Source: an uncultured Victivallales bacterium (lineage in GTDB: Bacteria; Verrucomicrobiota; Lentisphaeria; Victivallales; UBA1829). Taken from it: a stretch of DNA of 34,236 nucleotides. Positions 9,301 through 33,042 of the stretch are shown piece after piece. The notes under the pieces are model-generated. The model was given only the letters and a program-made list of their open reading frames with translations, was not told where the DNA came from and made no database searches. Made by a program: the position numbers and the translations under genes. Within the stretch, counting starts at the first letter, position 1; each line of letters begins with the position of its first letter. Location: NCBI GenBank assembly GCA_944389445.1, contig CALXMJ010000168.1:1-34236 (forward strand). Direction: 5' to 3'.

Positions 9301-9709
9301 CTGCACGCAGGCGTTTGCCGGATTTGTTCCGAATGAGACGGTCAAGTGCCGGGATGTCGATTTCAAGACAAGCAACGATTTCGCTGTTGTCATCATGACC
9401 AGCCGTGACAATCAGCCCCTCAAATCTTCCGGCCGGATTCTGATGACGGCGACCGCACGCTGCTGGAACACCGGGATGAAATATGCGCGTCTCCGCAACA
9501 GAATTTCCGCGCAGGGGGTTGCTCCGCAGATCTTCCAGCCGGTCAAGGGAAGCGTCTCGCTGCGGACCGGGAAAAATCTTGAAGTTTATGCCCTTGATTT
9601 CTCCGGACGCCGGACCGCACCGGTCAAATGTGTCTATCAGAATGGCGTTCTGACGATTCCGGTCGGCGCTGCCGTACACTATGAATTGACGGAAGGAGGA
9701 AAAAAATGA
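6371..9709 (+). CDS. very large secreted glycoside hydrolase, clan GH-A-like TIM barrel
   Basis: Predicted secreted enzyme of 1112 residues. An N-terminal signal peptide (basic MKNGLK, hydrophobic AVVLLCLT, end near residue 21-24) is followed by about 450 residues of beta-rich sequence. A TIM barrel then opens with RFMGMCVLGFF and RLRGMGVNIVRVG (residues about 495-535). Acid/base candidate E640 lies in MVVNETS and nucleophile candidate E821 in TLTEWN, in the order typical of clan GH-A. The last 200 residues look like a beta-sandwich. The gap of 181 residues between the two glutamates is longer than usual and implies inserts. GGGAG precedes the ATG. It is first in a plus-strand operon with a pseudopilin and an SGNH esterase. 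The substrate is not readable; a decorated plant or host glycan is likely from context. Confidence 0.8.
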   Translation: MKNGLKWFCRAVVLLCLTCSGNESLKAPSWMKIMPNGTFQIDDIRAAIGVNDGRRGASETAANSKFEKSPATIELDSRIWQTRFRPFSPGPFCTLQKKLTVFSDTELNWRYTFLGAEKSGIRGVGLDLTMPAAEREFIVDGKKVAVPAKFSRVVLYNGSCRILRIPVAGSDVEFSGDFKLTISDLRKWGSGTIILTFQMKEVERPWKKASFEFDIRYRGVRISREAFQAAGLKFTPVPLASSVNNTTWDDVADDGKCGWTDKGPQDDLRLFRCKGRTVLNGIPFDIADPAKSRGKNIVSVAHRNLGLNLPDSIELPMNGIKAGGLYFLHAAALANTAPGSYVVRYADGSAETIPLRNFDNIFNWWSVGTSSSSAIGWIPDPAGDSRKGLGLYPWRNPHPEKPIASVTMKVAPEAKKCMLMLAGITAVDRAPVIPAEEAASTVSDAGWIPYSPVDGKALENSILDVADMVPAPAGKFGFVRVDGDRFRFENGREARFMGMCVLGFFQCDKAYTSKVLRRLRGMGVNIVRVGVGGDENGGIFKAGGRMEFDPQRLDRYFFYLAELKKNGIYIQFDLLPSRGVKKFENPELEGVRWYPNVFVMPQIRNRQKELITKLLTTVNPYTGLPLAKDPALAMLMVVNETSLLDQPVRDKLTHPLVKAELKKKFNRFLMEKYRNRETLKKVWKGSLADSEDPGAGTVAIPMDYNRHRYSVERETDCRAFMAALQSEYFTEIRDHVRSLGCVAPITGSNHWTTDPLDFYSNAASTDFIDRHAYWAHPAVDNGWGIEQILFNPNSSLKSGTGGLLEQIVARRVAGKPFTLTEWNVASPNEFRADAQLYMPAYASMHGWNLFQFLFNMNRALSEPKRIGSAFDLERDVLQLAMWPATAVMFHRQDIRKSEPVFREKMTFAEAANPRGKRFEAGKLARTGLCTGTGISFSDDPDGKSSSARIPSEDKKSFASDTGELFWETRGLFRIDTPCTQAFAGFVPNETVKCRDVDFKTSNDFAVVIMTSRDNQPLKSSGRILMTATARCWNTGMKYARLRNRISAQGVAPQIFQPVKGSVSLRTGKNLEVYALDFSGRRTAPVKCVYQNGVLTIPVGAAVHYELTEGGKK

Positions 9710-9780
9710 AAATTTATCCGATTTGCAGGATGGATCTTTTCTGCCGATATGATGAAGAAAAATCAAACAGGAGTTCAGAT

Positions 9781-10449
9781 ATGAAACGTCGTTTTTCTTT
9801 GATTGAATTGCTGATTATCGTTGCGATCATCGCGATTCTGGTTGCTCTGCTGCTTCCCGCGCTTCAGAAAGCCAAGTCGAAATCCCGGGATGCGCTTTGC
9901 CTGGCTAATCTCAAGCAGGGGGCCGTGGCGATGAATTCCTACGCGCAGGATTTTAATGATTTCGTCAATCCGTGGCCGCTGGGGACGTGGACAGGGGATG
10001 CCTGTATCCGCCACACGAGTCCCTGGCGTGGATTCGGAGTTTATTACCGGAATAAATACCTGGAGAATCCCAGATCCATGTTTTGCGGGCAGTTCGGGGA
10101 ATTCAACAATACCGCAAGAGGAGATATTGAATATAACGCCATTGATTGGAGAACGATGAAATACAAACCGGGTGTTCCTTCCTCGCTTGGTTTCGCAGGG
10201 GCTGAGGCCGAGGTGATCTGGGGCTGCTACATCATGCGTGGAATGCGCAGCAATTCCAATCAGCCGCCGCGTCTGTTCAAAGCCGCTTCGACGGCGATGG
10301 TTTCGGAGTACGGATGCAACCGGATTGACGGATCACTGAATACGCGCTGGTTTGCGGCGCATACCGGTCGCTGGCCGGTTCTGTTCGGAGATTCCCGCGC
10401 GGTGTTCCTTTCGGAAAAGGAGATCCGGAAAGCCTGGTGGTATGATTGA
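9781..10449 (+). CDS. pseudopilin-like protein with prepilin N-terminus (H-X9-D type)
   Basis: Small type II secretion/type IV pilin-like protein of 222 residues. It has a short basic leader MKRR, then [24 protein letters not shown], i.e. the class III signal with glutamate at mature position 5 and one hydrophobic helix, then QKAKSKSRDALCLANLKQ. The C-terminus has HTGRWPVLFGDS, an H-X9-D match of the H-X9-DG motif in which the glycine is serine. Residue -1 is arginine and not glycine. The start at 9781 has AGGAG 7 bases upstream. An alternative ATG at 9706 overlaps the preceding stop, also has a strong GAAGGAGG site, and would add 25 residues. It lies between the giant glycosidase and the esterase. 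The role is unknown. Confidence 0.85.
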   Translation: MKRRFSLIELLIIVAIIAILVALLLPALQKAKSKSRDALCLANLKQGAVAMNSYAQDFNDFVNPWPLGTWTGDACIRHTSPWRGFGVYYRNKYLENPRSMFCGQFGEFNNTARGDIEYNAIDWRTMKYKPGVPSSLGFAGAEAEVIWGCYIMRGMRSNSNQPPRLFKAASTAMVSEYGCNRIDGSLNTRWFAAHTGRWPVLFGDSRAVFLSEKEIRKAWWYD

Positions 10450-12612: not shown

Positions 12613-15468
12613 CTATTTCAGGATGATTTCTCCGAAGTTCTTCGGCGGCAGACGTTTCAACTGGAAGAATCCGATTGCGGAAACGTCGTTCTGTTTTTTA
12701 TATTCCGCATCGCGGTCGTTGACCGTTCCCGCGCAGAAGACCGACATGCCGGGCCGAACTTTCTTCAGATTGATGAAATGCCACGGGACGGCGACCTGAT
12801 ACAGGATTTCCACCCGTCCGCCGTTCCCTTTTGTGACCGTGATGCTGCGTGGGAACTCCTGCGGGGAAAGGAGTCCCGTTTTCAGCGATTCCGGATCGAA
12901 GGAGTATGCTCTCCAGGCCTCGGGACCCTGTGGCGTCAGGGCGAGATTGATTTCACTGAAGGCGAGCTGGAGCTGTTCCCCCACGCTGTTCGAGGTGCGC
13001 GGAACAGTTCTTTGTCTGGAGAATCCCAGCTGGACGCTGTCGCCGTTCCAGAGATTTCTTCCCCGGGAGTTCTGAAAGAATAGATCGTCCAGAACTCGGA
13101 GCTTGATCAGGAAATACTCCTCATTCCATCCGAATGCGATGGCGGCGGAGAGATCTTCGGTCCCGCTGTGGAACTCGGGACTCCGGACACATTCTTCCGG
13201 CAGTTTCAGGGAAGGTTCGGCCTTCCAGCCGGAGAAGTCGCCGTTCCGTCCGACTCCGGGCAGATAATCGGCGGCAAGGAAGTTGAATTCCCCGTGCTTC
13301 CGGGACCGGTATCCGGATTTCAGCTCAACCGTGAGTTCCGTTTTGAATTTTTGAAACGGAGAAGGTTCAAAGCCGGGAAAGAGAAGTGTGAATTCTCTGC
13401 TCTGATTTCCCTTCAGGGAGAAGCCGGTCCTTTTTCTGGATTCCGGAATGCCGGGAATCCGTGAGGATACGGAACCGGAGCAGTCATTGCCGGAGAGGTT
13501 CTTCAGCGAGAAACGGAGTCCGAATGTTCCATCCGGAGAACAGTATGCCCGCTCGTTCTCCACGGCGACCGGCGGACGGACCCCGAGACGGATTCCCGTC
13601 GATGCGAGAATGCGTCCTGTCTCATCCACGAGGTTCATCTGGAAGGGATAGCGTCCTTCGGGAAGGGTTTGCGGGAGGTGCATTTTAATGGAATAGCGCG
13701 AATCCTTTTTCAGGCAAACGGAAGTTTCTTTCATTCGAAGTGCTGCGGGAGCTTTCAGCGTGAGGCGTCCATCGGAGAGTACGGAACCGGTGAGCGTGAT
13801 CTCACCTCCTGAGACTCCGGAAAGTTCTGTGCTGTCGGGACGGATTTTCCGTTCGGCGTTCCGTCCCCACAGCTTCGGATCCGCGTCCAGAATGTAGACC
13901 GGAGCTTCCGTGAGAGTCAGGGCGAGACTGCCTTTGTCTGTTTTCATCCGTTTCCGGTTGCCCATGATGTCGGCGACTTCGATGCTGTCTCTTCCCGTTT
14001 CGATGCGCACATCGGTATTTCTTCCGCTGAAATCCCAGAGGGCGATTATGCAGTGGTCATTCCGGTCCGCGTAGGAGTAACCGAGAACGGTGTCGCCGAG
14101 GTATTCGATTGTTCCGGTCGGCCGATGTCCCTCCAGCAGGAAACTGGCGGCGGCAAGCGCGGGAAAAACCGGACGCGGCGCCACTTTTCCGGTTGCCCAG
14201 ATATGGTGTGGAATCGTCAGATTATAGGTCAGTCCATAGTCGCCTCTGCCGGACGCGTCATGATCGTAGCCGTAGAACGGTTCGTTGGAAAGAATTCCTT
14301 CTCCGAGCAGAATCAAACTGGCGCGGACTTGTCCGTACATCTGAATCCGTTCTTCCGCGGGGGTGGCTCTGGCGGAATAGCCGGATTCATTCGCCCGGAT
14401 GCCGATCTTTCTGCCCTTCGCATATTGGCGGATCGTCTCTTTGAGCGCACGGATATTTTCCACAAGACCGTTCTCCTCCACCGGATACTGAATGTACGGA
14501 TGCAGCGACACTTCGTCCACCAGATCCAGAAATCCTTTCTCGAACAGTTTCCTGTGCGCTTCCGCGGAACCGAGACCGATATGGGAGAAGCATGGACCCA
14601 GGATCAGGGCGTCCGGATCTGCCTCGCGGATGGCTTTCCGCGCAATCCGGTAGATTCGGACGATGTCGTCATTGGAAAGATAGAGATCCGGTTCCCAGAG
14701 CGGCTGATAGCGCATGACTTTATCAAAGCCCTTCTGTTCCAGACCGCGTTTTGCCGTATCATAGTAAACTTTTGCGAAGAGGTCCTCACCCTTCTTGTTC
14801 AGCGGACGCAGGGACTGTTCGTTTCCTGTGAGGTTTCCCCTTTTCTCAGCGGCGGTCAGCTGCTGGAAGACGCTGCTCGGGCCGCGGAACACTTCGTACG
14901 AGTAGTAGACCCAGGGTTTGTTTTTCCGGGCTTTGATGAATTCCTCCCGGTTTTTTGCTATGTTGCGCTTTCCCCAGCGGCTGCCGATCCAGGAAGCAAG
15001 TGTCGATTTCCCCGTGGAATTGCCATGGAGACCGAAAAACGACTCTTCCGGCGGAAGAACTTTCCGGGAGGCGGGGTCCGGCAGAACGGCATAGGTCAGA
15101 CAACCCGCCGGACGGCTTCCGGTTTTCTGCAGGAGAGTTCCGTCCGAAAGTTTTGCCAGCACGCGGTAGAAGCCGTATTCTCCGCGCGGAACCTCCGTGA
15201 CGCTTCCGTTCCATTCCCCTTTCTCATTGGCCTGAAAGGGAATCCGGAGCGTTTTCCGGCTTTTTTCGTTCTGATCCTGAAAATCCAGCAGAAGGGTTTC
15301 CTTCTTTCCGGGAGCGAGTCCGCTGACTTTGAAATACAGCGTGATGCCTTCTCCCCGTTTGAAGAGACTGTTGTACGGATTCGATGTATCTCCCGTGAGC
15401 GCCACGGCGGCTTCCGTTGCGGCTGCGGCGAAAAGACACAGAGCGGATAAAAGCAATCTTTTTTTCAT
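12613..15468 (-). CDS. secreted GH39-like glycosidase with C-terminal CBM9-like module
   Basis: Predicted secreted enzyme of 951 residues. A clear signal peptide (MKKRLLLSALCLFAAAATEA) is followed by an immunoglobulin-like region, then a TIM barrel from about residue 140 to 450. Acid/base candidate E259 lies in QPLWEPDLY and nucleophile candidate E361 in IRANESGYS, 102 residues apart as in clan GH-A families such as GH39. A beta domain (VLGYSYADRNDHCIIALWDF, EAPVYIL) follows. The last 210 residues resemble a CBM9/DOMON-type sugar-binding module (NGDFSGWK, WNGDSVQLGFS, VEILYQVAVPWHFI, GFFQLKRL). It is last in the long minus operon, 7 bp after the propeller gene. The family is not certain; the activity is not known. 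Confidence 0.82.
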   Translation of the reverse strand: MKKRLLLSALCLFAAAATEAAVALTGDTSNPYNSLFKRGEGITLYFKVSGLAPGKKETLLLDFQDQNEKSRKTLRIPFQANEKGEWNGSVTEVPRGEYGFYRVLAKLSDGTLLQKTGSRPAGCLTYAVLPDPASRKVLPPEESFFGLHGNSTGKSTLASWIGSRWGKRNIAKNREEFIKARKNKPWVYYSYEVFRGPSSVFQQLTAAEKRGNLTGNEQSLRPLNKKGEDLFAKVYYDTAKRGLEQKGFDKVMRYQPLWEPDLYLSNDDIVRIYRIARKAIREADPDALILGPCFSHIGLGSAEAHRKLFEKGFLDLVDEVSLHPYIQYPVEENGLVENIRALKETIRQYAKGRKIGIRANESGYSARATPAEERIQMYGQVRASLILLGEGILSNEPFYGYDHDASGRGDYGLTYNLTIPHHIWATGKVAPRPVFPALAAASFLLEGHRPTGTIEYLGDTVLGYSYADRNDHCIIALWDFSGRNTDVRIETGRDSIEVADIMGNRKRMKTDKGSLALTLTEAPVYILDADPKLWGRNAERKIRPDSTELSGVSGGEITLTGSVLSDGRLTLKAPAALRMKETSVCLKKDSRYSIKMHLPQTLPEGRYPFQMNLVDETGRILASTGIRLGVRPPVAVENERAYCSPDGTFGLRFSLKNLSGNDCSGSVSSRIPGIPESRKRTGFSLKGNQSREFTLLFPGFEPSPFQKFKTELTVELKSGYRSRKHGEFNFLAADYLPGVGRNGDFSGWKAEPSLKLPEECVRSPEFHSGTEDLSAAIAFGWNEEYFLIKLRVLDDLFFQNSRGRNLWNGDSVQLGFSRQRTVPRTSNSVGEQLQLAFSEINLALTPQGPEAWRAYSFDPESLKTGLLSPQEFPRSITVTKGNGGRVEILYQVAVPWHFINLKKVRPGMSVFCAGTVNDRDAEYKKQNDVSAIGFFQLKRLPPKNFGEIILK

Positions 15469-17100: not shown

Positions 17101-17721
17101 TTACAGTCCCTGCCGGAGATTACCGAAATTGACGTCGGTCAGCTTTTCCTGATCGCTGACGATGGATGCGACATGACCGTCAAAATGGTAGACGTTGGAG
17201 CGCATGTTGTGCCGGAAGGAGATCCAGACCAGATATCCCACGTTCGAGGGCCAGTTGTAACGGGGATCGGTGTTGTTCTCCACCAGAATCTGCGCTTTGG
17301 AGGGCCGGCGGATGCGGGAGATCTTCTTGCAGACGTTTGCCGTGTCCCACTCGCCGGAAAAGAAGGTGTTCAATCCGTAGGAGTTGGCAGGATAAAGGGT
17401 CCAGGACGGACAGGGAATCATGTATTCCCCGTTTTTGTCTTTTTTTCTGGAAAGGCGTGCCGCCACCTCGTGAACCCAGGTGAAATCCTTCCGGACCATG
17501 AGCGGCATGCAGTATTCCGTATCGTTCGCATAAAGCTGCAAAGCCGTTCCGATGTTTTTCATGTTGTTGACGCATTGGATGGCGAATGCCTTTTCCCGCG
17601 CCTTGTTCAGCGCGGGAAGCAGAAGCGCTATCAGGATGGCCAGAATCGCAACTACGATCAGAAGTTCTATCAGGGAGAACCCCTTCTTCCTGTGGATGGG
17701 GTCTCTGGAAAGCCGATGCAT
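17101..17721 (-). CDS. pseudopilin-like protein with canonical G/F prepilin site and H-X9-DG motif
   Basis: Protein of 206 residues. The leader [14 protein letters not shown] ends in glycine, followed by [24 protein letters not shown] with glutamate at mature position 5, then [20 protein letters not shown]. The middle has single cysteines (IPCPSW, NVCKK). The end has [14 protein letters not shown], an exact H-X9-DG match. AAGGAG lies 9 bases before the ATG. It sits inside the long minus operon, between the CBM9-like fragment and the propeller gene, preceded by a 129-bp gap that has a TATAAT box near 17838 but no good -35. The protein resembles the small pilin-like family that is greatly expanded in Lentisphaerota and Planctomycetota; function unknown. 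Confidence 0.88.
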
Positions 17722-17850: not shown

Positions 17851-18435
17851 CTATTCGGTCAGATAGAGTGAGCCGTAGCGGACGGGATCCTTGCTCTCGA
17901 CGATTCCCCGGAAGAGACAGAGGGCTTTCCGGGAGCCGGAGTCCAGATCGTTGACTGCCGCGGCAAATCCGAAGCGGCTTCCGGTGCGCGGCGCTTCCCG
18001 CAGTCCGACTGCCTTCCAGGGGAAGAATACTTTGTAAGTCGTGACATTCCCTTTTCGTGTGACGGTGGCAGTTACATTTTCCGCCATACCCGGTTTCAGA
18101 ACAGGGTCGTAGGCATAGTGGCAGTAGGTCTGGACGCCGCTGCCGGTCAGTCCCACGGTAAATTCGAAACAGCGATGCCCTTTGAATCCGAATCCCTGAT
18201 TGTTTGCGTCCCACTCTTTGGATGCGTCCACATCGAATGCAAGCTGGAGGGAGTCTCCCAGCCACATCCGTTCCTGCTGATACGGCTGGGCAAATTCGTT
18301 GTCGGAGATTTCCGCGAAGACGTGAATGCCGTTCCGGTCGCGTGCGATTCTCAGTTCAGGGCGGCAGTCCGCTGCCTTCAGCAGAGACTTCTTTTCCTTG
18401 GGAGAGGTCCATTCGGATGCGGGAAGCGGGGGCAC
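17851..18435 (-). CDS. CBM9-like sugar-binding module, in frame with and cut off from the upstream glycosidase by one TAA
   Basis: A stretch of 194 residues with the marks of a CBM9/DOMON-like domain: ELRIARDRNGIHVFAEISD, WLGDSLQLAFDVDA, TTYKVFFPWKAVG, FGFAAAVNDLD and a closing RYGSLYL. It has no signal peptide. It is in the same frame as the gene at 18451-20928: the upstream stop TAA is followed by five sense codons and then the GTG at 18435. AGGGA lies 9 bases before that GTG, so coupled restart is possible. A homologous module is fused to the glycosidase at 12613 in the same operon, so the split here looks secondary. It is either a nonsense-broken tail, a readthrough extension, or a separate small protein. 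Confidence 0.7.
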   Translation of the reverse strand: MPPLPASEWTSPKEKKSLLKAADCRPELRIARDRNGIHVFAEISDNEFAQPYQQERMWLGDSLQLAFDVDASKEWDANNQGFGFKGHRCFEFTVGLTGSGVQTYCHYAYDPVLKPGMAENVTATVTRKGNVTTYKVFFPWKAVGLREAPRTGSRFGFAAAVNDLDSGSRKALCLFRGIVESKDPVRYGSLYLTE

Positions 18436-18450
18436 GGCACGGATTCCCTG

Positions 18451-20928
18451 TTACGGCAGCATCGGCATGGAGTAGAAATTCTGATTGATTGCCTTTTCTG
18501 TCCGGAACACCTCTCCCGGCTTTCCGGGATTCTGCACGGAGCAGACGATGTTTCCGGAGAGCTTCCGGAGTTTTCCCAGATCCAGAACAAGTTCATTTGT
18601 TCCTTTTTTCAGCTGGATTTTCTTTGTGATTCCGGCACAGGAGAGGGTTCCTGTCTTTTCCGCGTCGAATCTGGATTCCAGACGGATGCGGAGCCGGGGA
18701 TTCGCCTTTCCGGTCCAGATGGGGGTGGCTTCGGCGATGTTCACCGCGTTTTCCACCTGAACGGGAAGAATCCGGAGTTTGCCGTTGTCCCGAAGGATCA
18801 GGGAGTAGGCTCCCGGTTTGGCATGGTAGGGCAGACGGATTTTCCCCTGTTCGCGACGGAATTCCCGGGGGAGGAAAACCGGTGTTCCCGAAAGAGCCAG
18901 TTCCGATCCCGAAACCAGATTCACGCGCGGTTGTTCTTTTGCGTCGTAGAGAGCGGAGGATGTAGAGAAAAGATAGAGCGGGGATTCCGAAACCGTGATC
19001 CAGCCGTCTGCGGAGAGTTTTTCCTTTCCGCCCAGATAGTCTTCGGCGGATGTGAACGGAAACGGCAGGGAGATTTTTTCTTTTCCAGTGGCGTGCCAGA
19101 GAAGCTGAACGTAATCGCGGTCCCGTTTTCCTGTGACGAGGAAAATTTCCGGAGTCAGAGAAATGAGACGGGTGCAGCCGATGACTCCGGTCAGATTTCT
19201 TGTGAGAGTCATGTATGCCGCAACAGAAGGTTTGGGCGCCAGGTGGTCGTTTTCCCTGCGGAGAATGGAGAATCCGCTCTCTCCGCGGTTCCTGGTGTTG
19301 TAGAAGTCGCAGAAATAGATGACGCTGTCGATCCGTTCGGAGGAGAGCAGTGCCATGGAACGGGTCAGATAGCGGGCTTGCGTCACTTCGTCCACAGGAG
19401 TCTGCCAGGTGCCTTCCCAGGTGGTCCATCCGAATTCGGTGTAATGGAGAGGCATGTTCCGTTTTCCGATTTTTGTCAGAAAGTCGAAAAAGGCTTTCTG
19501 CTCGGTCCAGAATTCATCCTCGGGCCGGGTCCCGTCCACATAGCAGTGCATGACGATGCCGTCCATGGATTCGAAGAGACCGTACTGTGCCATTTTTTCC
19601 ATGAAATCGATTTTGATCCGGCTGCATACGGGCCCCATGACTTTGGTTCCCGGATGGATTTTCCGGACGGCTTCCGCGAAAACCCGATGGACATCCGCCA
19701 GTTCCTTTGTTGTTCCATACCAGCGGAAATCCGGTTCGTTGACTACGCAGAGGTATTTCCCGTTCATATCGGGATGCGCCTTGGCCCATGCCTCCACGGC
19801 TCTGCGGTAAAGGGACCAGTCAGCCGGCGGATAGAGTCCGTTTTTATTCCGGTGTTCGGCTTTGACGAGAGATTTCGGAACGGGAGTGTCGTTTCCCCCG
19901 GTGTAGATGGGGATTCTTGTATCGTCAAATTTGTGAAAATTGTTTTCTTTCTTCGGAGGCAGCAGTTTTCCTGATGCGTCAACCTTGCAGCTGCTCATGG
20001 AGAAGAAGCGCCAGTCCCAGCGGGCACCGATCCTCCGGGCGAAGTCAAAAGTGCCGTTTACGACCATCAGGCCGTATCTGGAGCGGCGAAGAAGGGAACT
20101 GTCGATGCTTTTGCCCAGTACCGCCGCCGCAAATTCCGTTGTGATCTGTTTTCCATCCGGATAGCGCGCTTCCACGAGGCCGATGTAGTAGCCTCGCCCG
20201 GATATTGTTTTCCGGGTATTGTCCGTGATGGTTTCCGAGGAGAGTTCTTTCCGGTCCGCATCCATAAGACGGAGCGTTGCGCGCGGTTTTTTCTCCGGGA
20301 ATGCGACTTGAATGTTCAAAGTTCCTTCTTCGGCAAAGAAGACATGGCGCAGAGTGTTGGAATTGATTTTGATTTCTCCGCCGGTGATCCGGTGGTTTTC
20401 CTGTTCGATCAGATCCACTTTCAGATCGCGCATCTCCAGAATGCCCTTCGGGACAAAAAAGCTCCATTCCAATGCCAGTGAATCCGGCAGGACGTTGCCG
20501 AAATCGACCAGCACGTCGATTCCCTTCCAGTTTTTGCTGTCGTTGAAGAGATAGCAGCTGTGGTCTCCGGTGACGCGGATGACCGGGGAGAGCGTCCCCA
20601 TGCGTCTGCCGTTCCGGTCATACTGCACGAAATTGAGCCCGATGCCCTGTCCCTTGTATTGTTCCGTCCGATAGGAACAGCGGAAGCGCATCCGATAGGG
20701 TCTGGAAAATGTTCCGGATCCCGTGATGGGAAAACGGGGAGAGGAGACCGATTTCTCCTTTCCCGTCTGTACAATCAGATTCCCTTTGCGAACGGAAATT
20801 TGCGGTTTTGAGGGGGTGTTCCGTTCCGTCGGAATGTACCAGCTGCGGGCCGTTTCCGATGCGGAGAGTCCGCAGGGAAACAGAAAGGCGGAACAGAGAA
20901 GAGAGAACAGAAAAGGATATTTCATCAT
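18451..20928 (-). CDS. secreted clan GH-A glycosidase (GH39/GH5-like)
   Basis: Predicted secreted enzyme of 825 residues. The start is set at the ATG at 20928 because AGGAG lies 9 bases before it; an upstream TTG at 20946 is less likely. The signal peptide is MMKYPFLFSLLCSAFLFPCGLSA. About 270 residues of beta-rich sequence come first, then a TIM barrel. Acid/base candidate E398 lies in CVVNEPDFRW and nucleophile candidate E498 in HYTEFGW, 100 residues apart. A beta domain and a jelly-roll-like tail end in MPMLP. The stop is followed in frame by a CBM9-like domain, so the original protein was probably about 1025 residues. It stands third in the long minus operon, 21 bp after a pseudopilin. 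The substrate is unknown. Confidence 0.85.
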   Translation of the reverse strand: MMKYPFLFSLLCSAFLFPCGLSASETARSWYIPTERNTPSKPQISVRKGNLIVQTGKEKSVSSPRFPITGSGTFSRPYRMRFRCSYRTEQYKGQGIGLNFVQYDRNGRRMGTLSPVIRVTGDHSCYLFNDSKNWKGIDVLVDFGNVLPDSLALEWSFFVPKGILEMRDLKVDLIEQENHRITGGEIKINSNTLRHVFFAEEGTLNIQVAFPEKKPRATLRLMDADRKELSSETITDNTRKTISGRGYYIGLVEARYPDGKQITTEFAAAVLGKSIDSSLLRRSRYGLMVVNGTFDFARRIGARWDWRFFSMSSCKVDASGKLLPPKKENNFHKFDDTRIPIYTGGNDTPVPKSLVKAEHRNKNGLYPPADWSLYRRAVEAWAKAHPDMNGKYLCVVNEPDFRWYGTTKELADVHRVFAEAVRKIHPGTKVMGPVCSRIKIDFMEKMAQYGLFESMDGIVMHCYVDGTRPEDEFWTEQKAFFDFLTKIGKRNMPLHYTEFGWTTWEGTWQTPVDEVTQARYLTRSMALLSSERIDSVIYFCDFYNTRNRGESGFSILRRENDHLAPKPSVAAYMTLTRNLTGVIGCTRLISLTPEIFLVTGKRDRDYVQLLWHATGKEKISLPFPFTSAEDYLGGKEKLSADGWITVSESPLYLFSTSSALYDAKEQPRVNLVSGSELALSGTPVFLPREFRREQGKIRLPYHAKPGAYSLILRDNGKLRILPVQVENAVNIAEATPIWTGKANPRLRIRLESRFDAEKTGTLSCAGITKKIQLKKGTNELVLDLGKLRKLSGNIVCSVQNPGKPGEVFRTEKAINQNFYSMPMLP

Positions 20929-20949: not shown

Positions 20950-21585
20950 TTATAGGAAATTGTATTTGGCCGGATTCGCCTGAATGTATGTTTTGAGTAC
21001 GGACCCTGCATGGCCGTCTCCGTAAAGAAGATTGAATGATCCCAGATGCGGCGGGGTGAACGGCCCGATATACCAGGAATGGATGGAATATTCGGAACAG
21101 ATGATGTCAGTGGATTTCATTTTCGGAAGGAGAAGGAGCTCCGGAGAGAAACTGCCGGTGCCGCGGAGCTGCCAGCTGCATCCGATGTTGTATTTCAGGG
21201 AGTCCATGGTTTCCCTGTTCCAGTCCATTTTGATGTCCTCCTCGTATTTCCCGCTGGAAAAGTGCTTGTGGGATTCGCAGTAGAAATACTGCGGAGACGG
21301 CAGGTATTTGTTCCGATAGTGAACGGCGAGTGTTTTCCAGTGTGTCCTACGGAGATTGTTCTGCATGTCTGTTTCGATGGTGATTCTCGGCCAGATCATC
21401 TGTTCGAAATCTTCTGCATAAAGAACGCAGCTCTGTCCGATCGTTTTCTGGTTGGAAATGCAGCGGACCTGCCGTCCTTTTTCCCGCGCCTTGTTCAGCG
21501 CCGGCAGCAGAAGCGAAACCAGGATGGAAATGACAGCGATGACGACCAGGAGTTCAATCAGGGAAAACTTTTCTGTTGTCTTCAT
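20950..21585 (-). CDS. pseudopilin-like protein with H-X9-DG motif
   Basis: Protein of 211 residues. It starts MKTTEK and then [24 protein letters not shown], with glutamate at mature position 5 and a single hydrophobic helix, followed by [21 protein letters not shown]. Residue -1 is lysine rather than glycine. The end has [13 protein letters not shown], an exact H-X9-DG match. It lies 35 bp after the GH5-like gene and 21 bp before the next glycosidase gene, so it is co-transcribed with them. Close in plan to the other three pseudopilins of the window. Confidence 0.88.
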
Positions 21586-24857: not shown

Positions 24858-27080
24858 TTATTTCCCCGAGATTTTCGTCCGGTGAACGTTCTGAATCCTT
24901 TTTCCGGTTCCGAACTCGACTTCATACAGATATCCATCCCGTGAGCGCAGACGGAATTTTCCGCTCCAGTTTTCCGGAACGGCGGGAAGAAGATCCGTTT
25001 TTCCGGAATGACTCTGGAGAAGCATCTCCTGAAGAGCGGTGGTATTTACGCCCGGAGAGTCCAGATAGGGCGCATCGGAAACCCCGAAGCGGCTTCCGGC
25101 GAGTCCTTTTCCGGGACTGTTCCAGCCGCCGTAGGGATAACGCTGCTGGAGCTTTGCATGTTTCAGCACAATTTCAGCGGTGTCGGGCAGATGCAGACGT
25201 GCCGCCTGCACACCGCATTGCGACCAGCCGGCGCGGTTCGGATAGTTTCTCATGCGGAAGGTCCGGACCATGCGTTCATATTCCGCGGCGGGACTGTATG
25301 CGTCGATCACGGCGAACGGATAGATGGCATAAAGTTCCGGATTCTCCTGATTGTAGGAGCCTTTGTCGTCCAGGAACTCGCGCAGGGGGGCGTAGACATC
25401 CGCAGGCACGATGACTCCCTGCTGTTTTTTTGTCTGAACCCGGAAGCCGAAGGGCAGTTCCGGCAGATGCTGATACCGCTCCCGGACCGCTTCCAGCAGA
25501 ACCGGTTCGAAGCCGAAGCCGGGTCCGTGTTTCAGCGCGGCTTCAAAGACCCGCCGGACTCCGGCAAGATCCGGTGCGGGATCGCGGACCTTGCGGAACT
25601 GTTCGATCGAATCCGATGGTTCCATGTGATACAGTCCATCGGGACCCTTTTTCAGAAATGTGACCAGAAAGAGCGTGATTTCATGGAGCCAGGGGGAGAA
25701 GATCCCGCTGGCGAACTGCGGATCGCCGGTATAGCGGAAGTAGTCGTCCAGCAGACAGATCCATTCCGCGGCGGCGGAGTGGATGTGCGTGGTATAGCCG
25801 CCTTTCCTGGATTCGAGGCGCTGATCGTATTGTTTTTCCAGAAGTTCGCGGGTGACGGGAGTTGTGACATGCTTCCGCGTTTTTTCCAGAACGCGGGTCG
25901 GGAGCCATTCCGGGAAGTAGATGCCGGCTTTGCCGAATTTGGCTGTTTCCTGTTGACGGTAGTGGAAATAGGAGTCATAGAAATCAATCTGTCTGCGCCA
26001 GATTTCCGGATGGTTGGCCGTTCCGAGGGGCCAGGAGATTTCGCGCTGGTTCTGGAACCAGTAGCCGTGTCCCCAGGAGATGTTGTCGTCGCGGACGCTT
26101 CCGAGTCCTCCGCTGAAGCGCGGCGGGTAGACTCCTCCGTGCACGCCTGCCAGACTGTACAGATTGACGAACCAGAGTTTATTCAGGTAGGCCGCATCCG
26201 GATCGCCGCGGAGGACGATGAAGGAACGCGACCAGAACTCCCGCCACCAGTTTTCCTGCTGTTGGATGATTTCCGGTGTTTTCATGACTGCGCTCTGAAC
26301 TGCGGCAATGTCGATGGAGTTTCCGAAGGTGACCGTTTCCGCCGTTACGAAGAAGCGGTAGTTCCGCAACGGAGTGGCGGACTTCGCGGAAATCGAATGG
26401 GAATCGTGTTCCGCCGGGAGAAGTTTGCCCTGATCCAGAGCGATTGCCAGATGGAGGCTCCGTCCGTAGACGTGATCGTCCGGCGAAGGCTTTTTCCCTT
26501 CGGGGAGGGGACGCTGGTTGGCCTGCAGAAGATTGGTTTCCCGGCAGAGAATGCGTCCTTCGACAAGATTCAGAAACTGCGGAGACCGATGGTTGAAATA
26601 GAGAATCGAGGCTTTGGCGGGAGTTTTTCTGTTATCTTCGACTTCAATCAGAAGCGTGTTCTTTCCCATGACGCCGCGGATGACGGCTTTCACGGTTCCT
26701 TCCGCGGTTCCGAGTTCAAACCGGAGACATCCGTGATACAGATCCAGTTCCTGCCGGAACCGTGTCAGAGACTCCGGTTTGAGTTCGGGAAAGATCCGGA
26801 TTCTGCCCGGAGAAAGCGGCAGGGGGGAGTAGTGATATTTGACGGCTTCATGACCGAAGAAATCATGTTTCCCGAGCTGAAGTTCGATTCCGTTTCCGAA
26901 TCCCGCCATCGCTTTGAGATCGCCCGATCCGACCGGCATGACCCAGGCGGGATCGGCATCGTAGCGGTCGAATACGGGATTCAGCTCCTTCATCCGGGCG
27001 GCGACATCCGGCGGGATGGTACCTGCGGAAAGGAGCGCCGCAGCGAATACGGCGCATCCGGCAATGAGGCTTTTATTCAT
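24858..27080 (-). CDS. secreted GH95-like (alpha/alpha)6 glycosidase
   Basis: Predicted secreted enzyme of 740 residues. The signal peptide is MNKSLIAGCAVFAAALLSAG. An N-terminal beta domain like that of GH95 and related proteins has WVMPVGSGDLKAMAGFGNGI, where such proteins have a similar GNGxxG turn. The helical barrel has SVRDDNISWGHGYWFQNQ near residues 328-345. The end has NTTALQEMLLQSHSGK and LLPAVPENWSGKFRLRSRDG, strongly reminiscent of the GH95 C-terminus (EMLLQSH, LLPALP, GLRARGG). GH95 enzymes act on alpha-L-fucose or alpha-L-galactose residues; this copy is distant, so the specificity is open. Its ATG overlaps the end of the lyase gene by 8 bases. It is the last gene of its operon. 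Confidence 0.8.
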   Translation of the reverse strand: MNKSLIAGCAVFAAALLSAGTIPPDVAARMKELNPVFDRYDADPAWVMPVGSGDLKAMAGFGNGIELQLGKHDFFGHEAVKYHYSPLPLSPGRIRIFPELKPESLTRFRQELDLYHGCLRFELGTAEGTVKAVIRGVMGKNTLLIEVEDNRKTPAKASILYFNHRSPQFLNLVEGRILCRETNLLQANQRPLPEGKKPSPDDHVYGRSLHLAIALDQGKLLPAEHDSHSISAKSATPLRNYRFFVTAETVTFGNSIDIAAVQSAVMKTPEIIQQQENWWREFWSRSFIVLRGDPDAAYLNKLWFVNLYSLAGVHGGVYPPRFSGGLGSVRDDNISWGHGYWFQNQREISWPLGTANHPEIWRRQIDFYDSYFHYRQQETAKFGKAGIYFPEWLPTRVLEKTRKHVTTPVTRELLEKQYDQRLESRKGGYTTHIHSAAAEWICLLDDYFRYTGDPQFASGIFSPWLHEITLFLVTFLKKGPDGLYHMEPSDSIEQFRKVRDPAPDLAGVRRVFEAALKHGPGFGFEPVLLEAVRERYQHLPELPFGFRVQTKKQQGVIVPADVYAPLREFLDDKGSYNQENPELYAIYPFAVIDAYSPAAEYERMVRTFRMRNYPNRAGWSQCGVQAARLHLPDTAEIVLKHAKLQQRYPYGGWNSPGKGLAGSRFGVSDAPYLDSPGVNTTALQEMLLQSHSGKTDLLPAVPENWSGKFRLRSRDGYLYEVEFGTGKRIQNVHRTKISGK

Positions 27081-29445
27081 AGGAAGGCACGACTCCTTTC
27101 TCTGTTGTTTTCCATTGAAACTGTTTTGGGATTTTCATGGGGATAACGGTTCCCCGGCCGGATTCCCCCTGATCCGAGAGTTCATATCCGGCGCTGGCAA
27201 GGCATCCGCCGGAAAGACGGATCGTGTTTCCGTTTTTCAGCGTCAGTTCGAAGCCGTCCGGCAGGCGTTTCCGCGATACGACGGGATTTTCGCCGCGGAA
27301 CGGTACTATGACCGTATAAAGTGTTTTGCTCCCCCGGCTGTTCCATTCGGTGAAGAGTTGAACGGCTGGAGTGAAGGTCCATGCTTTCCGGTCCGTCAGT
27401 TTCGCGACCCATCCGAGAATCCGGTCTTTTCGGAATATACCGCAGTGGGTGGAAAATTGCAAACCGTTGATTCCGTAAAAGTAGAATGCGGCGTTGACGG
27501 AATCGCCCGGCCGGGTTGTGACGACGCTGTCGGAATGAATGCGCAGAAACTCCGGTTTGAATTCGGGGGCGAACAGCCAGCTCTGCGTGAAACGGTGTTC
27601 CCGGAGGGAGTTCACTGTATCGCGGACGAGGAAAATTCCAGCGGATTTGATGAGGATCACGGCACGGTTGTGGGTGACATCGCCGATGACGGTGTCATAG
27701 GGTTTCCGGTCAAAGACTGTGACGTTGGCTCCATCCCGGTTGAAGTTCCATCCGGCATATTTTCCCTGATATTTGCCTTCGATGAAATCGAATTCCCGTC
27801 CGGTCAGAAAACGGTTGGGGAGGGGCGTTTCCCAGACTCTCGGGATTTTGGCGTCGAGTTTGACTTTCTGTCCGAATCCGTCCACGCTGATCGACTTGTG
27901 CGCGGCGGTGGAGTACCAGTATTCGTTCATTTTCGGATCGGGGTGGTACATTTCTCCGCCGGAGTTCACGATAATGGACTGACCGAGAGCATCAAGTTCG
28001 ATTCCGTTCACCCCTTCGCGCCAGTGGCCGTTTCCGGGACGGGAGCTTTTGAGAAATGCGTAGAGAGCATTTTTATCCCATCCGTTGCGCAGGACGCTCC
28101 AGCCGCCGAACGGGAATGTGATGCTCTGAAACGCCGGAGGGGTGCCGCGTCCTTCGTAGACAAAATCGCGGATCTGTCTGGAAAGCGGGAGAATGGAAAA
28201 ATCCGAGATCCGTCCGGCGGAGCGAGCCTCATTGGAGCCTTTGAAGAACTCCGCGCTGCTGGAGAGCCCGGGCATGGATTGACGTGCTTTGCCGTAATCG
28301 CGCCAGGTGTTGTTTTTTCCGGCGATCGGCAATGCGCCGCTCGGCTTGGCAAGGGAGTGGAGGAAATAGCAGCGGTTGCGATAGATTTCCTCCAGACGTT
28401 TCCGGAGGGGGAGTTGTTCTTCCGGAGGAAGCTGGCGGAGTGCCGTCATCATCTCCTGAATTTTTGCAGGGAGATCGGCGTTGTAGTTGAAGCTCTGTTC
28501 CATATCGCTGCCGTCGGGGAGGATTCCGCTGTTGAGGACGTTGCGGAGTCCGGTTACCCTCCAGCGCGGAGCGTCGCGGAATTCCGGGAGGGCGCTCCCC
28601 AGCAGGAAGAGCTGGATGGCGCAGTGCTGGCGCTGATTCGGGAGCCACTCTTTTGCCGCCAGCTGACGTTCCGCTGTGCCCGCTTCGTATTCCGTGATAT
28701 GGAGAAGAATTTCTGCGAATTTCGTGCTGTCGATCAGTCCGGCGGCTTCGCTTCGGCGGCTGATCGCGTTGAGTCCCTGAAGGAACGCCTGGATGCGCCA
28801 GCCGAGGTAGAGAGGAATATCGCACCATTGAATGGAGTTCTGCGGAAGACGGGTCCGGTATTCCCTGGTCTTGCGGATGGCGGCATACTGTTCCGGCCAG
28901 TGTTCGGCGAAGTCGGCCCAGTAGCCGATCCATGCGTCGAGATATTTGACATCGCCGGTCTGCTTGTATTTTTCGGCGAGTTTGTTTGTCCACTGCATGG
29001 TGGAGAGATCGCGGACGAGGAGATCGTACCCGTCATCGGGGAAGCGGAACCACTGCACCTGACCGGGAAGTCCGATGACGGCTCTGGTATCGGTGAATTT
29101 TCCGTATTGACGAGTCGTCAGAATCCCATTGAGAAGCTCATCGGCGCTGGCGGGTCCGTGCAGCCAGAAATAGAGATTCCGGATTTCCGGGGTTTTGGCG
29201 ATACGGGTCAGGAGCTCCCGTTTGAAACGGTCGAAGTCCGGCTTTTTCTGCATGGATGTTCCGCGATTGCCGATGGAGAGCTTTTGCAGGACGCGATCCT
29301 GTGCTCCTGCTGATTGTGATGGCGTATTGCCCGGCTGTCTTGCCGGAGGAGTGGTGGTTCCGGGTGTTTTGCCGAGCTGGATGTCTGCGAAAGAGCACCC
29401 GGCAGCGACCACTAGGATTCCGGCGGCGAGAAGTGATATTTTCAT
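27073..29445 (-). CDS. heparinase II/III-like polysaccharide lyase, probable lipoprotein
   Basis: Predicted exported lyase of 790 residues. The start at 29445 (MKISLLAAGILVVAAGC) gives a signal with a lipobox-like VAAGC at residues 13-17, and AAGGAG lies 9 bases before it; an in-frame upstream ATG at 29493 would hide the signal. A proline/threonine-rich linker follows, then the alpha/alpha toroid with EQSFNYNADLP (Y321), then the beta domain with the GNGHWREGVN block (H474) and AAHKSISVDG (H516). These correspond to the Tyr/His sites and the GHxD and AHNT motifs of heparinase II/III, alginate and related lyases. Substrates would be uronic acid polysaccharides. It lies 17 bp after the pseudopilin gene. 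Confidence 0.82.
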   Translation of the reverse strand: MKISLLAAGILVVAAGCSFADIQLGKTPGTTTPPARQPGNTPSQSAGAQDRVLQKLSIGNRGTSMQKKPDFDRFKRELLTRIAKTPEIRNLYFWLHGPASADELLNGILTTRQYGKFTDTRAVIGLPGQVQWFRFPDDGYDLLVRDLSTMQWTNKLAEKYKQTGDVKYLDAWIGYWADFAEHWPEQYAAIRKTREYRTRLPQNSIQWCDIPLYLGWRIQAFLQGLNAISRRSEAAGLIDSTKFAEILLHITEYEAGTAERQLAAKEWLPNQRQHCAIQLFLLGSALPEFRDAPRWRVTGLRNVLNSGILPDGSDMEQSFNYNADLPAKIQEMMTALRQLPPEEQLPLRKRLEEIYRNRCYFLHSLAKPSGALPIAGKNNTWRDYGKARQSMPGLSSSAEFFKGSNEARSAGRISDFSILPLSRQIRDFVYEGRGTPPAFQSITFPFGGWSVLRNGWDKNALYAFLKSSRPGNGHWREGVNGIELDALGQSIIVNSGGEMYHPDPKMNEYWYSTAAHKSISVDGFGQKVKLDAKIPRVWETPLPNRFLTGREFDFIEGKYQGKYAGWNFNRDGANVTVFDRKPYDTVIGDVTHNRAVILIKSAGIFLVRDTVNSLREHRFTQSWLFAPEFKPEFLRIHSDSVVTTRPGDSVNAAFYFYGINGLQFSTHCGIFRKDRILGWVAKLTDRKAWTFTPAVQLFTEWNSRGSKTLYTVIVPFRGENPVVSRKRLPDGFELTLKNGNTIRLSGGCLASAGYELSDQGESGRGTVIPMKIPKQFQWKTTEKGVVPSYE

Positions 29446-29462
29446 TGAGTGAATCTCCTTTG

Positions 29463-30206
29463 TCACTGCATTTTTGTACGGCGTGCGTTCCACGGACTTT
29501 TATTTTCATACTGCCGGATGCCGGTGGGATCGCCTTCCTGACTGTTTTTGAGTTCGACGTGTCCATCGGCGAAGGCGTAGTTGTAACGGAAAGGACCGTG
29601 CAGGGCGGGATCGCCGGTCCATTGTTTTGCGGCATTCTGAATGGATGCGTTGGAGGTGTATCCCAGTGTGTTTGTATTGTGCGCCATTTCAACAAGGGTG
29701 AAGGTCCGGGTGGGGAACTTGATCATTCCGCTCCGGATTGCGGCGCCGGAACCGTAGATGCCGGGATATTTGTTGTATTCGGCAGGATTGGAGGTGCCGC
29801 GTGTCAGGGCGTAGGTCCGGCGGTAAAGATTGGCTCCATAGGAGGAGACTCCGGCACGGTCCGAGGGACAGAGATAAAGATTTGCCCCGCCTTTGATCTC
29901 GACGAATCTTGCCGTTTTCTCGGATGCGGAGAGCCTGGGAGCCGGTGCATAGTCATTGATGAGGTCATCCCAGACCAGCATAGGTTCGCCTGTCGGTTCC
30001 GGATCGGCAATGTGGGGGAAGTAATCCTCGTGATCCATTCCGTACTGATTCAGTCCCATGGCAAGCTGTTTCAGATTTCCGGCGCATTTGATGGTCATGG
30101 CCTTTGCGCGGGCTCCGTTCAGAGCGGGGAGCAGCATTCCGGCAAGGATGGCTATGACTGCAATGACGATGAGGAGTTCTATCAGAGTGAATTGAGTCTG
30201 TTTCAT
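29463..30206 (-). CDS. pseudopilin-like protein with DGH motif
   Basis: Protein of 247 residues. It starts MKQTQ and then FTLIELLIVIAVIAILAGMLLPAL with glutamate at mature position 5, followed by NGARAKAMTIKCAGNLKQLAMGLNQYG. Residue -1 is glutamine rather than glycine. The end has HGPFRYNYAFADGHVEL, a near match of H-X9-DG with 10 residues between. YLCPSD holds the middle cysteine seen in the group. AGGAG is 8 bases before the ATG. It lies 2 bp after the LacI-type gene and 17 bp before the lyase gene, so it is in the same operon. Confidence 0.9.
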   Translation of the reverse strand: MKQTQFTLIELLIVIAVIAILAGMLLPALNGARAKAMTIKCAGNLKQLAMGLNQYGMDHEDYFPHIADPEPTGEPMLVWDDLINDYAPAPRLSASEKTARFVEIKGGANLYLCPSDRAGVSSYGANLYRRTYALTRGTSNPAEYNKYPGIYGSGAAIRSGMIKFPTRTFTLVEMAHNTNTLGYTSNASIQNAAKQWTGDPALHGPFRYNYAFADGHVELKNSQEGDPTGIRQYENKSPWNARRTKMQ

Positions 30207-30208
30207 GT

Positions 30209-31228
30209 TCAGTTCTCCTGAATGATTTTGGGATCGAGTTCGAGTTTTGTCAGCGGTTCGTTGCGGTTGTCGATTCTCCAGAGCAGGCGGCGCACGGCCT
30301 CTCTGCCGATGCGTTCCGGCTGGATATCGACGGAAGCCGGACGGGGATTCAAATTCTTCAGAAACGCCAGTTCATTGTTGACTCCGATGATTTCGACATC
30401 TTTGCCGGGAATGAGTCCGCAGTGCGGCAGAGTCTGGTAAAGTCCGAGCATGATGATATCGACCGGAGCGAAAATGGCGGTCGGCAGGGCGGGGAAGGTT
30501 TTCATTTCTTCCAGAAGAGTTCCGAGTTCCCGGACATTTGCCAGCTGGGTTTCGCCGGTTTCGACGATCAGTTCCTTTCCCTGGAGCGTTTCCAGACGGC
30601 CCCCCTTTTCCAGAACGGTCCGGCAGAAACTCTCTTCGCGCCGGGGAAAGGTGGAACGGATGCAGAGGAAGACGCGATGGCCGCGATTCCAGAGATGCTC
30701 CGCGGCATATCTTCCGACGGCGTCATCGTTGTAGGTGATGTGATCGAAGAAATCGTTTTCGCGCGGCAGCCCCATGATCCGGACGCAGGGAATTTCGCGC
30801 AGGGCGCGGATGAAGCGGGGATCCTCGCCGGAGAGGGCAAAGAGAATTGCGCCGTCGATGCGCGGCGGCAGTTTGGAAAACGGCTGTCCGCATTTGAAGT
30901 TGCGGAGGATCATGTTGTAGTCGTGTTCGCTCAGCTCCTCCTCCACGCCGCGGATGACGCGGGAGTAGATCGGCGCGTTCAGAACCGTGACCGGAAGACG
31001 GGAGAGCAGAGCAATCTGCATCTGTCGGTATTTCCGGCGGCGGATGGTTGTATGATTCTGCCGCAGATGGAACGGCCTCAGTTCGAATCCGAGGCGCTCG
31101 GATGCTTCCCGGACTTTCCGGACCGTCTCCGGGCTGATCTTCGGATGGTTGTTGTTGACACGCGAGACCGTGGCAGGCGATACTCCCGCCTCCCGCGCGA
31201 TTTCCAGAATGGTGATGTTATTTTTCAT
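30209..31228 (-). CDS. LacI-family transcriptional regulator
   Basis: Transcription factor of 339 residues. The N-terminal LacI helix-turn-helix is classic (ITILEIAREAGVSPATVSRVNNN, residues 5-27) with the hinge region before residue 65. The effector domain follows (QIALLSRLPVTVL, GAILFALSG, ITYNDDAVGRYAAEHLWNRGHRVFLCI, PTAIFAPVDIIMLGLYQTL, DVEIIGVNNE, PASVDIQPERIGREAVRRLLWRI). It overlaps the end of the symporter gene by 11 bases and is followed at 2 bp by a pseudopilin. Being inside the operon it likely regulates, it would act as an autorepressor released by a sugar; the operator candidates lie near 33044-33173. Confidence 0.93.
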   Translation of the reverse strand: MKNNITILEIAREAGVSPATVSRVNNNHPKISPETVRKVREASERLGFELRPFHLRQNHTTIRRRKYRQMQIALLSRLPVTVLNAPIYSRVIRGVEEELSEHDYNMILRNFKCGQPFSKLPPRIDGAILFALSGEDPRFIRALREIPCVRIMGLPRENDFFDHITYNDDAVGRYAAEHLWNRGHRVFLCIRSTFPRREESFCRTVLEKGGRLETLQGKELIVETGETQLANVRELGTLLEEMKTFPALPTAIFAPVDIIMLGLYQTLPHCGLIPGKDVEIIGVNNELAFLKNLNPRPASVDIQPERIGREAVRRLLWRIDNRNEPLTKLELDPKIIQEN

Positions 31229-32981
31229 CTCCGATCCTTCTCCTGTAATTGAAATAAAGCAGGCCGCCTGTAATCAGGGCAACTCCGCCGATGAACAGAA
31301 AACTGATTCTTCCCGCCGCTCCGTTCGGAATGAACACTCCCAGCAGTGTGAGCGCGCCGTATGCCAGACAGAGCATTCCGAGCATCCGGAACTGCATGGA
31401 ATCGGTATTTTCATGTTCATCGGAATCTTCCGTGACGGGTGTATTCATATCCTGAAAGAAGGCATCGACCTCCTTCTCCCTCTCAGAGCTGATCTTTCCC
31501 GCGAAGAAGCGCGACCCGAGAAACCAGATGCAGGAGATTCCTGCCACCAGAAAGATCATCAGGGAAAACTGCAGATCTCCTGCTTCCTGTTCCGTCAGTT
31601 TGCGCGGAATTCCCAGGAAGGTTGCAATCTCCTGAATCGGCAGCTGGTACGTGACCAGATACGCCACCAGAAGGCCGACGACAATCGTGCTCCACGCTGC
31701 CCATTGAGGCGTTTTCCGCACGAAAATTCCCAGCACCAGCGGCATGGTCAGCGGAATGGAGATCAATCCCGCGAGCAGCAGAGTCAGTTCAAAGAGCGGC
31801 AGTTTCGACACCTCGGAAAACCAGATTCCGAGCAGAATCATCAGCACGCCCAGCACCACGGTGGCGATCCGGGCGAAGAGCAGCAGTTCCCGGTCATCCG
31901 CCTGCGGCCGGATCAGCGCCAGATAGATGTTCCGTCCCGTGATCCCGCTGATCTGGTTCAGCGAGGTGTTGACCGAAGACATCGTTGCGGCAAAGATTCC
32001 GCATGCGAGCAGTCCGGTCAATCCCGCCGGGAACACCCTCATGCAGATCGCCACATAGGAGGCCTCTTCCGGATTCCGCAGGTACGGAAATTCCGCCGCG
32101 ATGTCGGGAATCACAAACGATGCCGCCATCGGCGGAATGAACCAGAACAGCGGGCCGACAATAAAGCCGAAGGCCACCAGCAGAGCCGATTTCCGTGCGT
32201 CCCGGTCGCTTTTCACAAACAGAAAACGACTGGCGCCCGCCGTCAGATTGATCGCACTGAAAATCTGATTGAAGAAGATCGCGATCAGCCAGCAGACGAC
32301 AATCTGCGGAGAGAGCGTCTCGCTCCAGTTGAAATGATAGCTTGGAATCTTCTCGAAGAATCCGCTCACTCCTCCCACCTCCGGCATCCGCAGTACCAGA
32401 ACCGCCGCGACGATCGTAATGGACATGACGATCAGCGCCTGTACAAAATCCGAAGCCGCCACCGCCCAGCTCCCGCCGGTTACCGCCAGAAACGTGATAA
32501 GCAGTCCCATGACCCAGATGGAGCCGTTCACGCTCATGCCCAGAATCGGCGCAAGAAAAATCGACAGCGTATAGAGTCCGAGTCCGCCGAAAATGAAACT
32601 GATGATCGTGTTGTACCACGCATAAACCTGCTCCGATCCCTTTCCGAATCTGCGCCGGACCGCGTCAATCGGCGTGATGACGCGCATCCGCCGGAAGCGA
32701 TGAGCAAAGAAAAGCGCAATCAGCAGATATGCCACCGCATTAAAGGCAAACAGCATGATCAGCAGAGTTCCCGTCTTGTAAATTTTTCCCGCGCATCCGA
32801 CAAAGGTCCATGCGCTGAACGTTACCATGAAATTCGACGCCCCGGAGAGGTACCAGCTCATGGAACCTCCTCCGCGCAGAAAGTCGCTTGTGTTCTTGCA
32901 GACATTCCGGAAATACACGCCGATCCCTGCCATGAATACCACAAACACTGCTATCACCGCATAGTCATAAAAGCCGATCAT
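31218..32981 (-). CDS. sodium/solute symporter (SSS family)
   Basis: Inner-membrane sodium-coupled transporter of 587 residues, SSS/SLC5 type. The start at 32981 (MIGFYDYAVIAVFVVFMAGIG) begins directly with the first membrane helix; AAGGAG lies 12 bases upstream. Family signs are the FLRGGGSMSWYLSGASNFMVTFSAWTFVG segment of helices 1-2, GLYTLSIFLAP, and GIFAATMSSVNTSLNQISGITGRNIY, the conserved sodium-site helix with the SSVNTSL motif. About 13 hydrophobic segments are seen; a polar loop (KISSEREKEVDAF) lies near the end. It is first in the operon with LacI regulator, pseudopilin, lyase and GH95-like enzyme, so it probably imports the released sugar or uronate. Confidence 0.92.
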   Translation of the reverse strand: MIGFYDYAVIAVFVVFMAGIGVYFRNVCKNTSDFLRGGGSMSWYLSGASNFMVTFSAWTFVGCAGKIYKTGTLLIMLFAFNAVAYLLIALFFAHRFRRMRVITPIDAVRRRFGKGSEQVYAWYNTIISFIFGGLGLYTLSIFLAPILGMSVNGSIWVMGLLITFLAVTGGSWAVAASDFVQALIVMSITIVAAVLVLRMPEVGGVSGFFEKIPSYHFNWSETLSPQIVVCWLIAIFFNQIFSAINLTAGASRFLFVKSDRDARKSALLVAFGFIVGPLFWFIPPMAASFVIPDIAAEFPYLRNPEEASYVAICMRVFPAGLTGLLACGIFAATMSSVNTSLNQISGITGRNIYLALIRPQADDRELLLFARIATVVLGVLMILLGIWFSEVSKLPLFELTLLLAGLISIPLTMPLVLGIFVRKTPQWAAWSTIVVGLLVAYLVTYQLPIQEIATFLGIPRKLTEQEAGDLQFSLMIFLVAGISCIWFLGSRFFAGKISSEREKEVDAFFQDMNTPVTEDSDEHENTDSMQFRMLGMLCLAYGALTLLGVFIPNGAAGRISFLFIGGVALITGGLLYFNYRRRIGDEK

Positions 32982-33014
32982 TGTTTGAATCTTCTCCTTT
33001 GTTTTCTCTCTTTC

Positions 33015-33042
33015 ATTATACAACAAAAGAAAAAAATAACAA
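33015..33042 (-). promoter_or_regulatory. promoter of the symporter operon
   Basis: On the minus strand, TTGTTA (33037-33042) and TATAAT (33015-33020) are 16 bp apart and 34 bp from the start codon. The upstream region is AT-rich and contains ATGCAAA repeats and a palindrome. The -10 box is strong; the -35 is weak. Confidence 0.55.

Follow-up and report, generated by a model that had tools for sequence, protein, structure and literature searches.

Results

Organization of the locus

The window analysed here, that is, the whole stretch of 34,236 nucleotides, carries a gene for a secreted glycosidase that a single TAA separates from a CBM9 module lying in the same frame. The split lies on the minus strand, a point on which the original prediction was silent. 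The features concerned are as follows:

20928-18451, minus strand: secreted GH39-like glycosidase, 825 amino acids, ending at TAA (open reading frame, family profile, fold match, orthologues L045 and L046)
20860-20928, minus strand: probable signal peptide MMKYPFLFSLLCSAFLFPCGLSA (hydrophobic N-terminus; cleavage site placed by eye)
18453-18451, minus strand: in-frame TAA, codon 826 of the presumed ancestral gene (orthologue codon comparison; linker in the structure model)
18445-18449, minus strand: AGGGA, an SD-like sequence before the GTG (duplex energy, orthologue sequence)
18433-18435, minus strand: GTG, proposed re-initiation codon, GTT in G002 and GTG in G003 (orthologue codons)
17854-18450, minus strand: CBM9_1 module, 199 codons after the stop and in frame (Pfam PF06452, dN/dS, hydropathy)
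12613-15468, minus strand: distant glycosidase paralogue with a fused C-terminal CBM9-like module (module match and catalytic-part match)

The 825-codon frame starts with the ATG at 20928, preceded by GCAGGAGT (SD duplex -6.9 kcal/mol), and closes with the TAA at 18453-18451, after which the frame stays open, as predicted, for 199 codons with no other stop until the TAG at 17853-17851. This continuation is not a product of chance, since two orthologues of the same genus read through the same 1025 codons without indels.

Four small genes of the window, 9706-10449 (plus strand) and 17101-17721, 20950-21585 and 29463-30206 (minus strand), match DUF1559 and/or the prepilin N-methylation motif; they adjoin glycosidase and polysaccharide-lyase-like genes, so that pseudopilins are interleaved with carbohydrate-active enzymes. 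The minus-strand genes at 24858-29493 and 30209-33026, which encode GH95-like and heparinase II/III-like enzymes, a LacI-type regulator and a sodium:solute symporter, look like a glycan-use locus.

The enzyme and its family

The N-terminus of the 825-residue glycosidase is hydrophobic (maximum Kyte-Doolittle value over nine residues 2.19), and the signal peptide is followed by N-terminal beta-rich domains, a GH39-like barrel at about residues 280-600 and a C-terminal beta-sandwich. The window protein alone gave no Pfam match and thus falls below detection as GH39, and the assignment rests on the family, in which both profile and fold support GH39 over the catalytic domain. Pfam Glyco_hydro_39 was matched in five of nine family members, and the profile of the family alignment A2 matched GH39 beta-xylosidases and PslG over the catalytic barrel (1px8, E 5.6e-10; PslG, E 2.8e-8). 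With a structure model built from the intact G002 orthologue (mean pLDDT 74, pTM 0.66, nine sequences), the best fold found by Foldseek was 5jvk, a Bacteroides GH39 (E 9.8e-16, target TM 0.67). The motifs NEP (E398) and TEFGW (E498) are invariant in A2, and by analogy with GH-A clan enzymes we take these two glutamates to be the likely acid/base and nucleophile. Compared with known GH39 enzymes (beta-xylosidases 1px8 and 2bs9, PslG 5bx9 and the Bacteroides cellulosilyticus enzyme 5jvk), the window family is alike in catalytic-barrel profile and fold but larger, carrying additional beta-rich domains at the N-terminus and CBM9 at the C-terminus.

We weighed a distant relative within the order, L150 (G128:C112), as a possible orthologue that lacks the CBM naturally and set it aside, since it is only about 32% identical and not an orthologue of the glycosidase gene. 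Its 513-residue frame ends soon after the GH39-like catalytic domain and CBM9 is found in no frame of the 4.3-kb locus, so the protein may be CBM-less by nature or truncated.

The CBM9 module and a fused paralogue

The piece after the stop is a CBM9-like domain, as first proposed from the sequence: Pfam CBM9_1 (PF06452) matched it with an E value of 1.2e-9 and 38.7 bits against a curated cutoff of 23.4, and the same domain was found in all nine family members. The C-terminal part of the family profile matches 1i82, CBM9-2 of the Thermotoga xylanase 10A, with an E value of 7.5e-5; the likeness is thus to the module of Thermotoga maritima Xyn10A (1i82/1i8a/1i8u), while, unlike in other CBM9 modules of the comparison, in the window genome alone does one stop codon part the module from its enzyme. 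No export signal was seen on the released module, in which hydropathy shows no hydrophobic N-terminus (maximum Kyte-Doolittle value 0.18), and the expectation that the unfused module would not be exported is borne out to that extent.

The paralogous arrangement at 12613-15468, cited in the original prediction as a case in which the module remains fused, was recovered too: a CBM9-like match at 12694-13098 (31% identity, E 9.6e-8) lies inside its own uninterrupted 963-residue open frame, though Pfam called no CBM9 on this protein, and the catalytic part matches the glycosidase with an E value of 3.5e-6. In the window's own genome (G000), most CBM9-like modules likewise lie within long open frames.

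Orthologues carry a sense codon

Within the order-wide set of 137 genomes, true orthologues of the gene number only two, both from the same genus, in G002 (CASEYW010000189.1; 91% amino acid identity) and in G003 (74%). Both are single uninterrupted open reading frames of 1025 codons, equal in length to the split frame of the window with 0 indels against it, and the order of neighbouring genes is conserved between the window and the two loci. Codon 826 is TAA in the window, AGA in G002 and GAA in G003; a single change separates TAA from GAA, and a codon AAA would lie one step from each of TAA, AGA and GAA. Comparison of orthologous loci, which had been proposed as a check, thus found the genes fused in both relatives, each with a sense codon in place of the TAA, and separate in neither. 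More widely, 21 matches to the read-through protein were found in 9 of the 137 genomes, and an internal stop was present only in that of the window. A scan of genome contigs brought up no second genome for the species of the window, its one match being the G002 record, and no relatives were found among viral contigs.

Constraint on the module and age of the stop

Measured between the window and G002, dN/dS comes to 0.103 over the 825 codons of the glycosidase and to 0.104 over the 199 codons of the CBM part, so that purifying selection is equal on the two parts. When the CBM replacements are polarised with G003, five fall on the branch of the window and four on that of G002. Taking the glycosidase rate as the standard, the probability of finding no more than 20 replacements would be about 0.025 if constraint on the CBM part had been absent over 10% of the window branch, and about 0.0004 if over 20% of it. 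The equality of dN/dS in both parts therefore limits any loss of constraint to about 10% of the branch at most, an age bound that is approximate, as it derives from a simple Nei-Gojobori count. Equal constraint means that the stop is recent, or that the module is still made despite it, or that the TAA is an error.

The stop lies in an inter-domain linker

In the G002 model, the last strands of the beta-sandwich span residues 807-821 and those of CBM9 begin at 856 (856-863), thus placing codon 826 in a predicted linker between the two, and the stretch around this codon is variable. Among the 352 single-base changes that could create a stop, only 11 fall within the linker (823-855). With so few nonsense changes possible there, the position favours, modestly, a tolerated truncation over a random consensus error; as an argument for a true allele, linker placement is modest and post hoc.

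The draft genome of the window comprises 456 contigs and is 89.6% complete with 3.38% contamination. A codon-usage scan for genes split in the same frame, covering 448 kb in G000 and 386 kb in G002, gave 11 hits in the first and 12 in the second. Most were adjacent genes sharing a frame by chance and the split at codon 826 was not recovered, so the scan was dropped as unspecific. Its place was taken by a comparison of orthologous segments between G000 and G002, and in 29 segments (13,301 amino acids) the only mid-gene stop was that at codon 826, the other stop found lying 8 residues from an open reading frame end. Since the sampled segments of G000 hold no other mid-gene stop, the assembly is at that level free of widespread errors.

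Discussion

Three readings of the in-frame TAA had been put forward from the sequence, namely a very recent nonsense change, readthrough and re-initiation, and among them the first is best supported by our results, given that both orthologues are unsplit genes in which the site holds a sense codon and that the downstream piece has not decayed. We therefore favour, with a probability of about 0.68, a recent nonsense substitution at codon 826 that leaves the enzyme without its CBM9. The ancestor would have been a single gene of 1025 codons encoding a signal peptide, beta-rich domains, a GH39-like domain, a beta-sandwich and CBM9, in which a nonsense substitution hit codon 826 in the variable linker ahead of the CBM9 module. 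Ribosomes would be expected to terminate at the TAA and to release a secreted enzyme of 825 residues, in which the catalytic and beta-sandwich domains would be complete and the carbohydrate-binding module gone, while the remaining 199 codons would be untranslated or nearly so and their product not exported. That the substitution would be recent follows from the constraint on the CBM9 codons, which still matches that on the other codons of the gene. Three components of this reading we infer, namely the presence of the TAA in the organism itself, efficient termination at it and activity of the truncated enzyme. Most likely no new translation mechanism is needed, and ordinary evolution of modular enzymes accounts for the locus.

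The main alternative to a nonsense substitution is that the TAA is an artefact of assembly or sequencing, or the allele of a minority strain, and that the organism has a sense codon and a fused protein. The fragmented state of the draft and a CBM part free of decay speak for such an error, which we nevertheless consider unlikely, at well under half the weight of the favoured reading: the change is a substitution and involves no indel, the sampled orthologous segments hold no other mid-gene stop (one in 13,301 amino acids), and the stop falls in the short linker that holds only 11 of the 352 possible nonsense changes.

Equal constraint on the CBM part is also expected under readthrough or re-initiation. 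If termination were leaky, some ribosomes would decode the UAA, followed by C at +4, and both forms of the enzyme would be secreted. The downstream frame is intact and constrained, and the +4 base makes some leakage conceivable: in yeast, a C at +4 makes all three stops more prone to readthrough and tRNA-Gln contributes to readthrough of UAA (PMC5289835). In bacteria as in eukaryotes, however, UAA leaks less than the other two stops (PMC5289835), the stop at codon 826 is kept in no relative although the extension is constrained, and recency accounts for the constraint equally well. Nor was a suppressor tRNA seen, the anticodons TTA, CTA and TCA being present in none of the 36 tRNA genes found in the genome, which is about 90% complete. 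The 60 nucleotides downstream of the stop fold with -12.1 kcal/mol, a value obtained without a shuffle control and judged unremarkable. With a UAA stop unique to the window genome and no suppressor tRNA, the suggestion of readthrough made from the sequence gains no positive support, and we regard it as improbable. A shade less probable again is its stronger form, that a real, fixed and leaky UAA sets the ratio of soluble CBM-less enzyme to a little CBM9-tethered enzyme from one gene. As a separate observation, the genome has tRNA-Trp (CCA) genes on two contigs, L093 (G000:C31) and L094 (G000:C202), and this duplication could be a true second copy or result from binning contamination.

Re-initiation, or an independent start, at the GTG would yield a separate CBM9 protein and is the least probable of the readings, scarcely to be expected here. 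Both elements that had been named for it exist, the GTG (18435-18433) five codons past the TAA and AGGGA 9 nt ahead of it, with a duplex energy of -5.1 kcal/mol against the canonical anti-SD, but neither is distinctive: the GTG is GTT in G002, where AGGG with the following A is also present as coding sequence (AGGGA forms part of the sense codons CAG GGA), and the duplex lies within the background of the same gene (median -3.4, 10th percentile -5.9) and is weaker than those of six bona fide starts in the window (-5.6 to -9.3). As the module has no hydrophobic N-terminus, a re-initiated product would stay cytoplasmic, away from its substrate. A two-gene arrangement, with a conserved start, an SD sequence and an export signal on the module, was not found.

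A literature search for stops arising by mutation between a catalytic module and a CBM returned only loosely related papers. The nearest case is the pullulanase of Lactobacillus amylovorus, in which one isolate has a premature stop while the reference strains are intact (PMC11980422). There, too, the stop lies between binding module and catalytic part in one isolate only, but it removes the signal peptide and the N-terminal CBM, whereas in the window the C-terminal CBM alone is lost and the enzyme should remain secretable. For automatic annotation the locus would, with a real stop, be a caution, as it would be listed as encoding an orphan cytoplasmic CBM9 protein. If a recent nonsense substitution is the right reading, one change in a linker is predicted to turn a CBM-bearing enzyme into a CBM-less one, with secretion and catalytic part unharmed. 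If the stop is real, the gene would thus capture a modular carbohydrate-active enzyme at the point of losing a domain, and offer a minor example of change in the modular repertoire of gut polysaccharide degraders.
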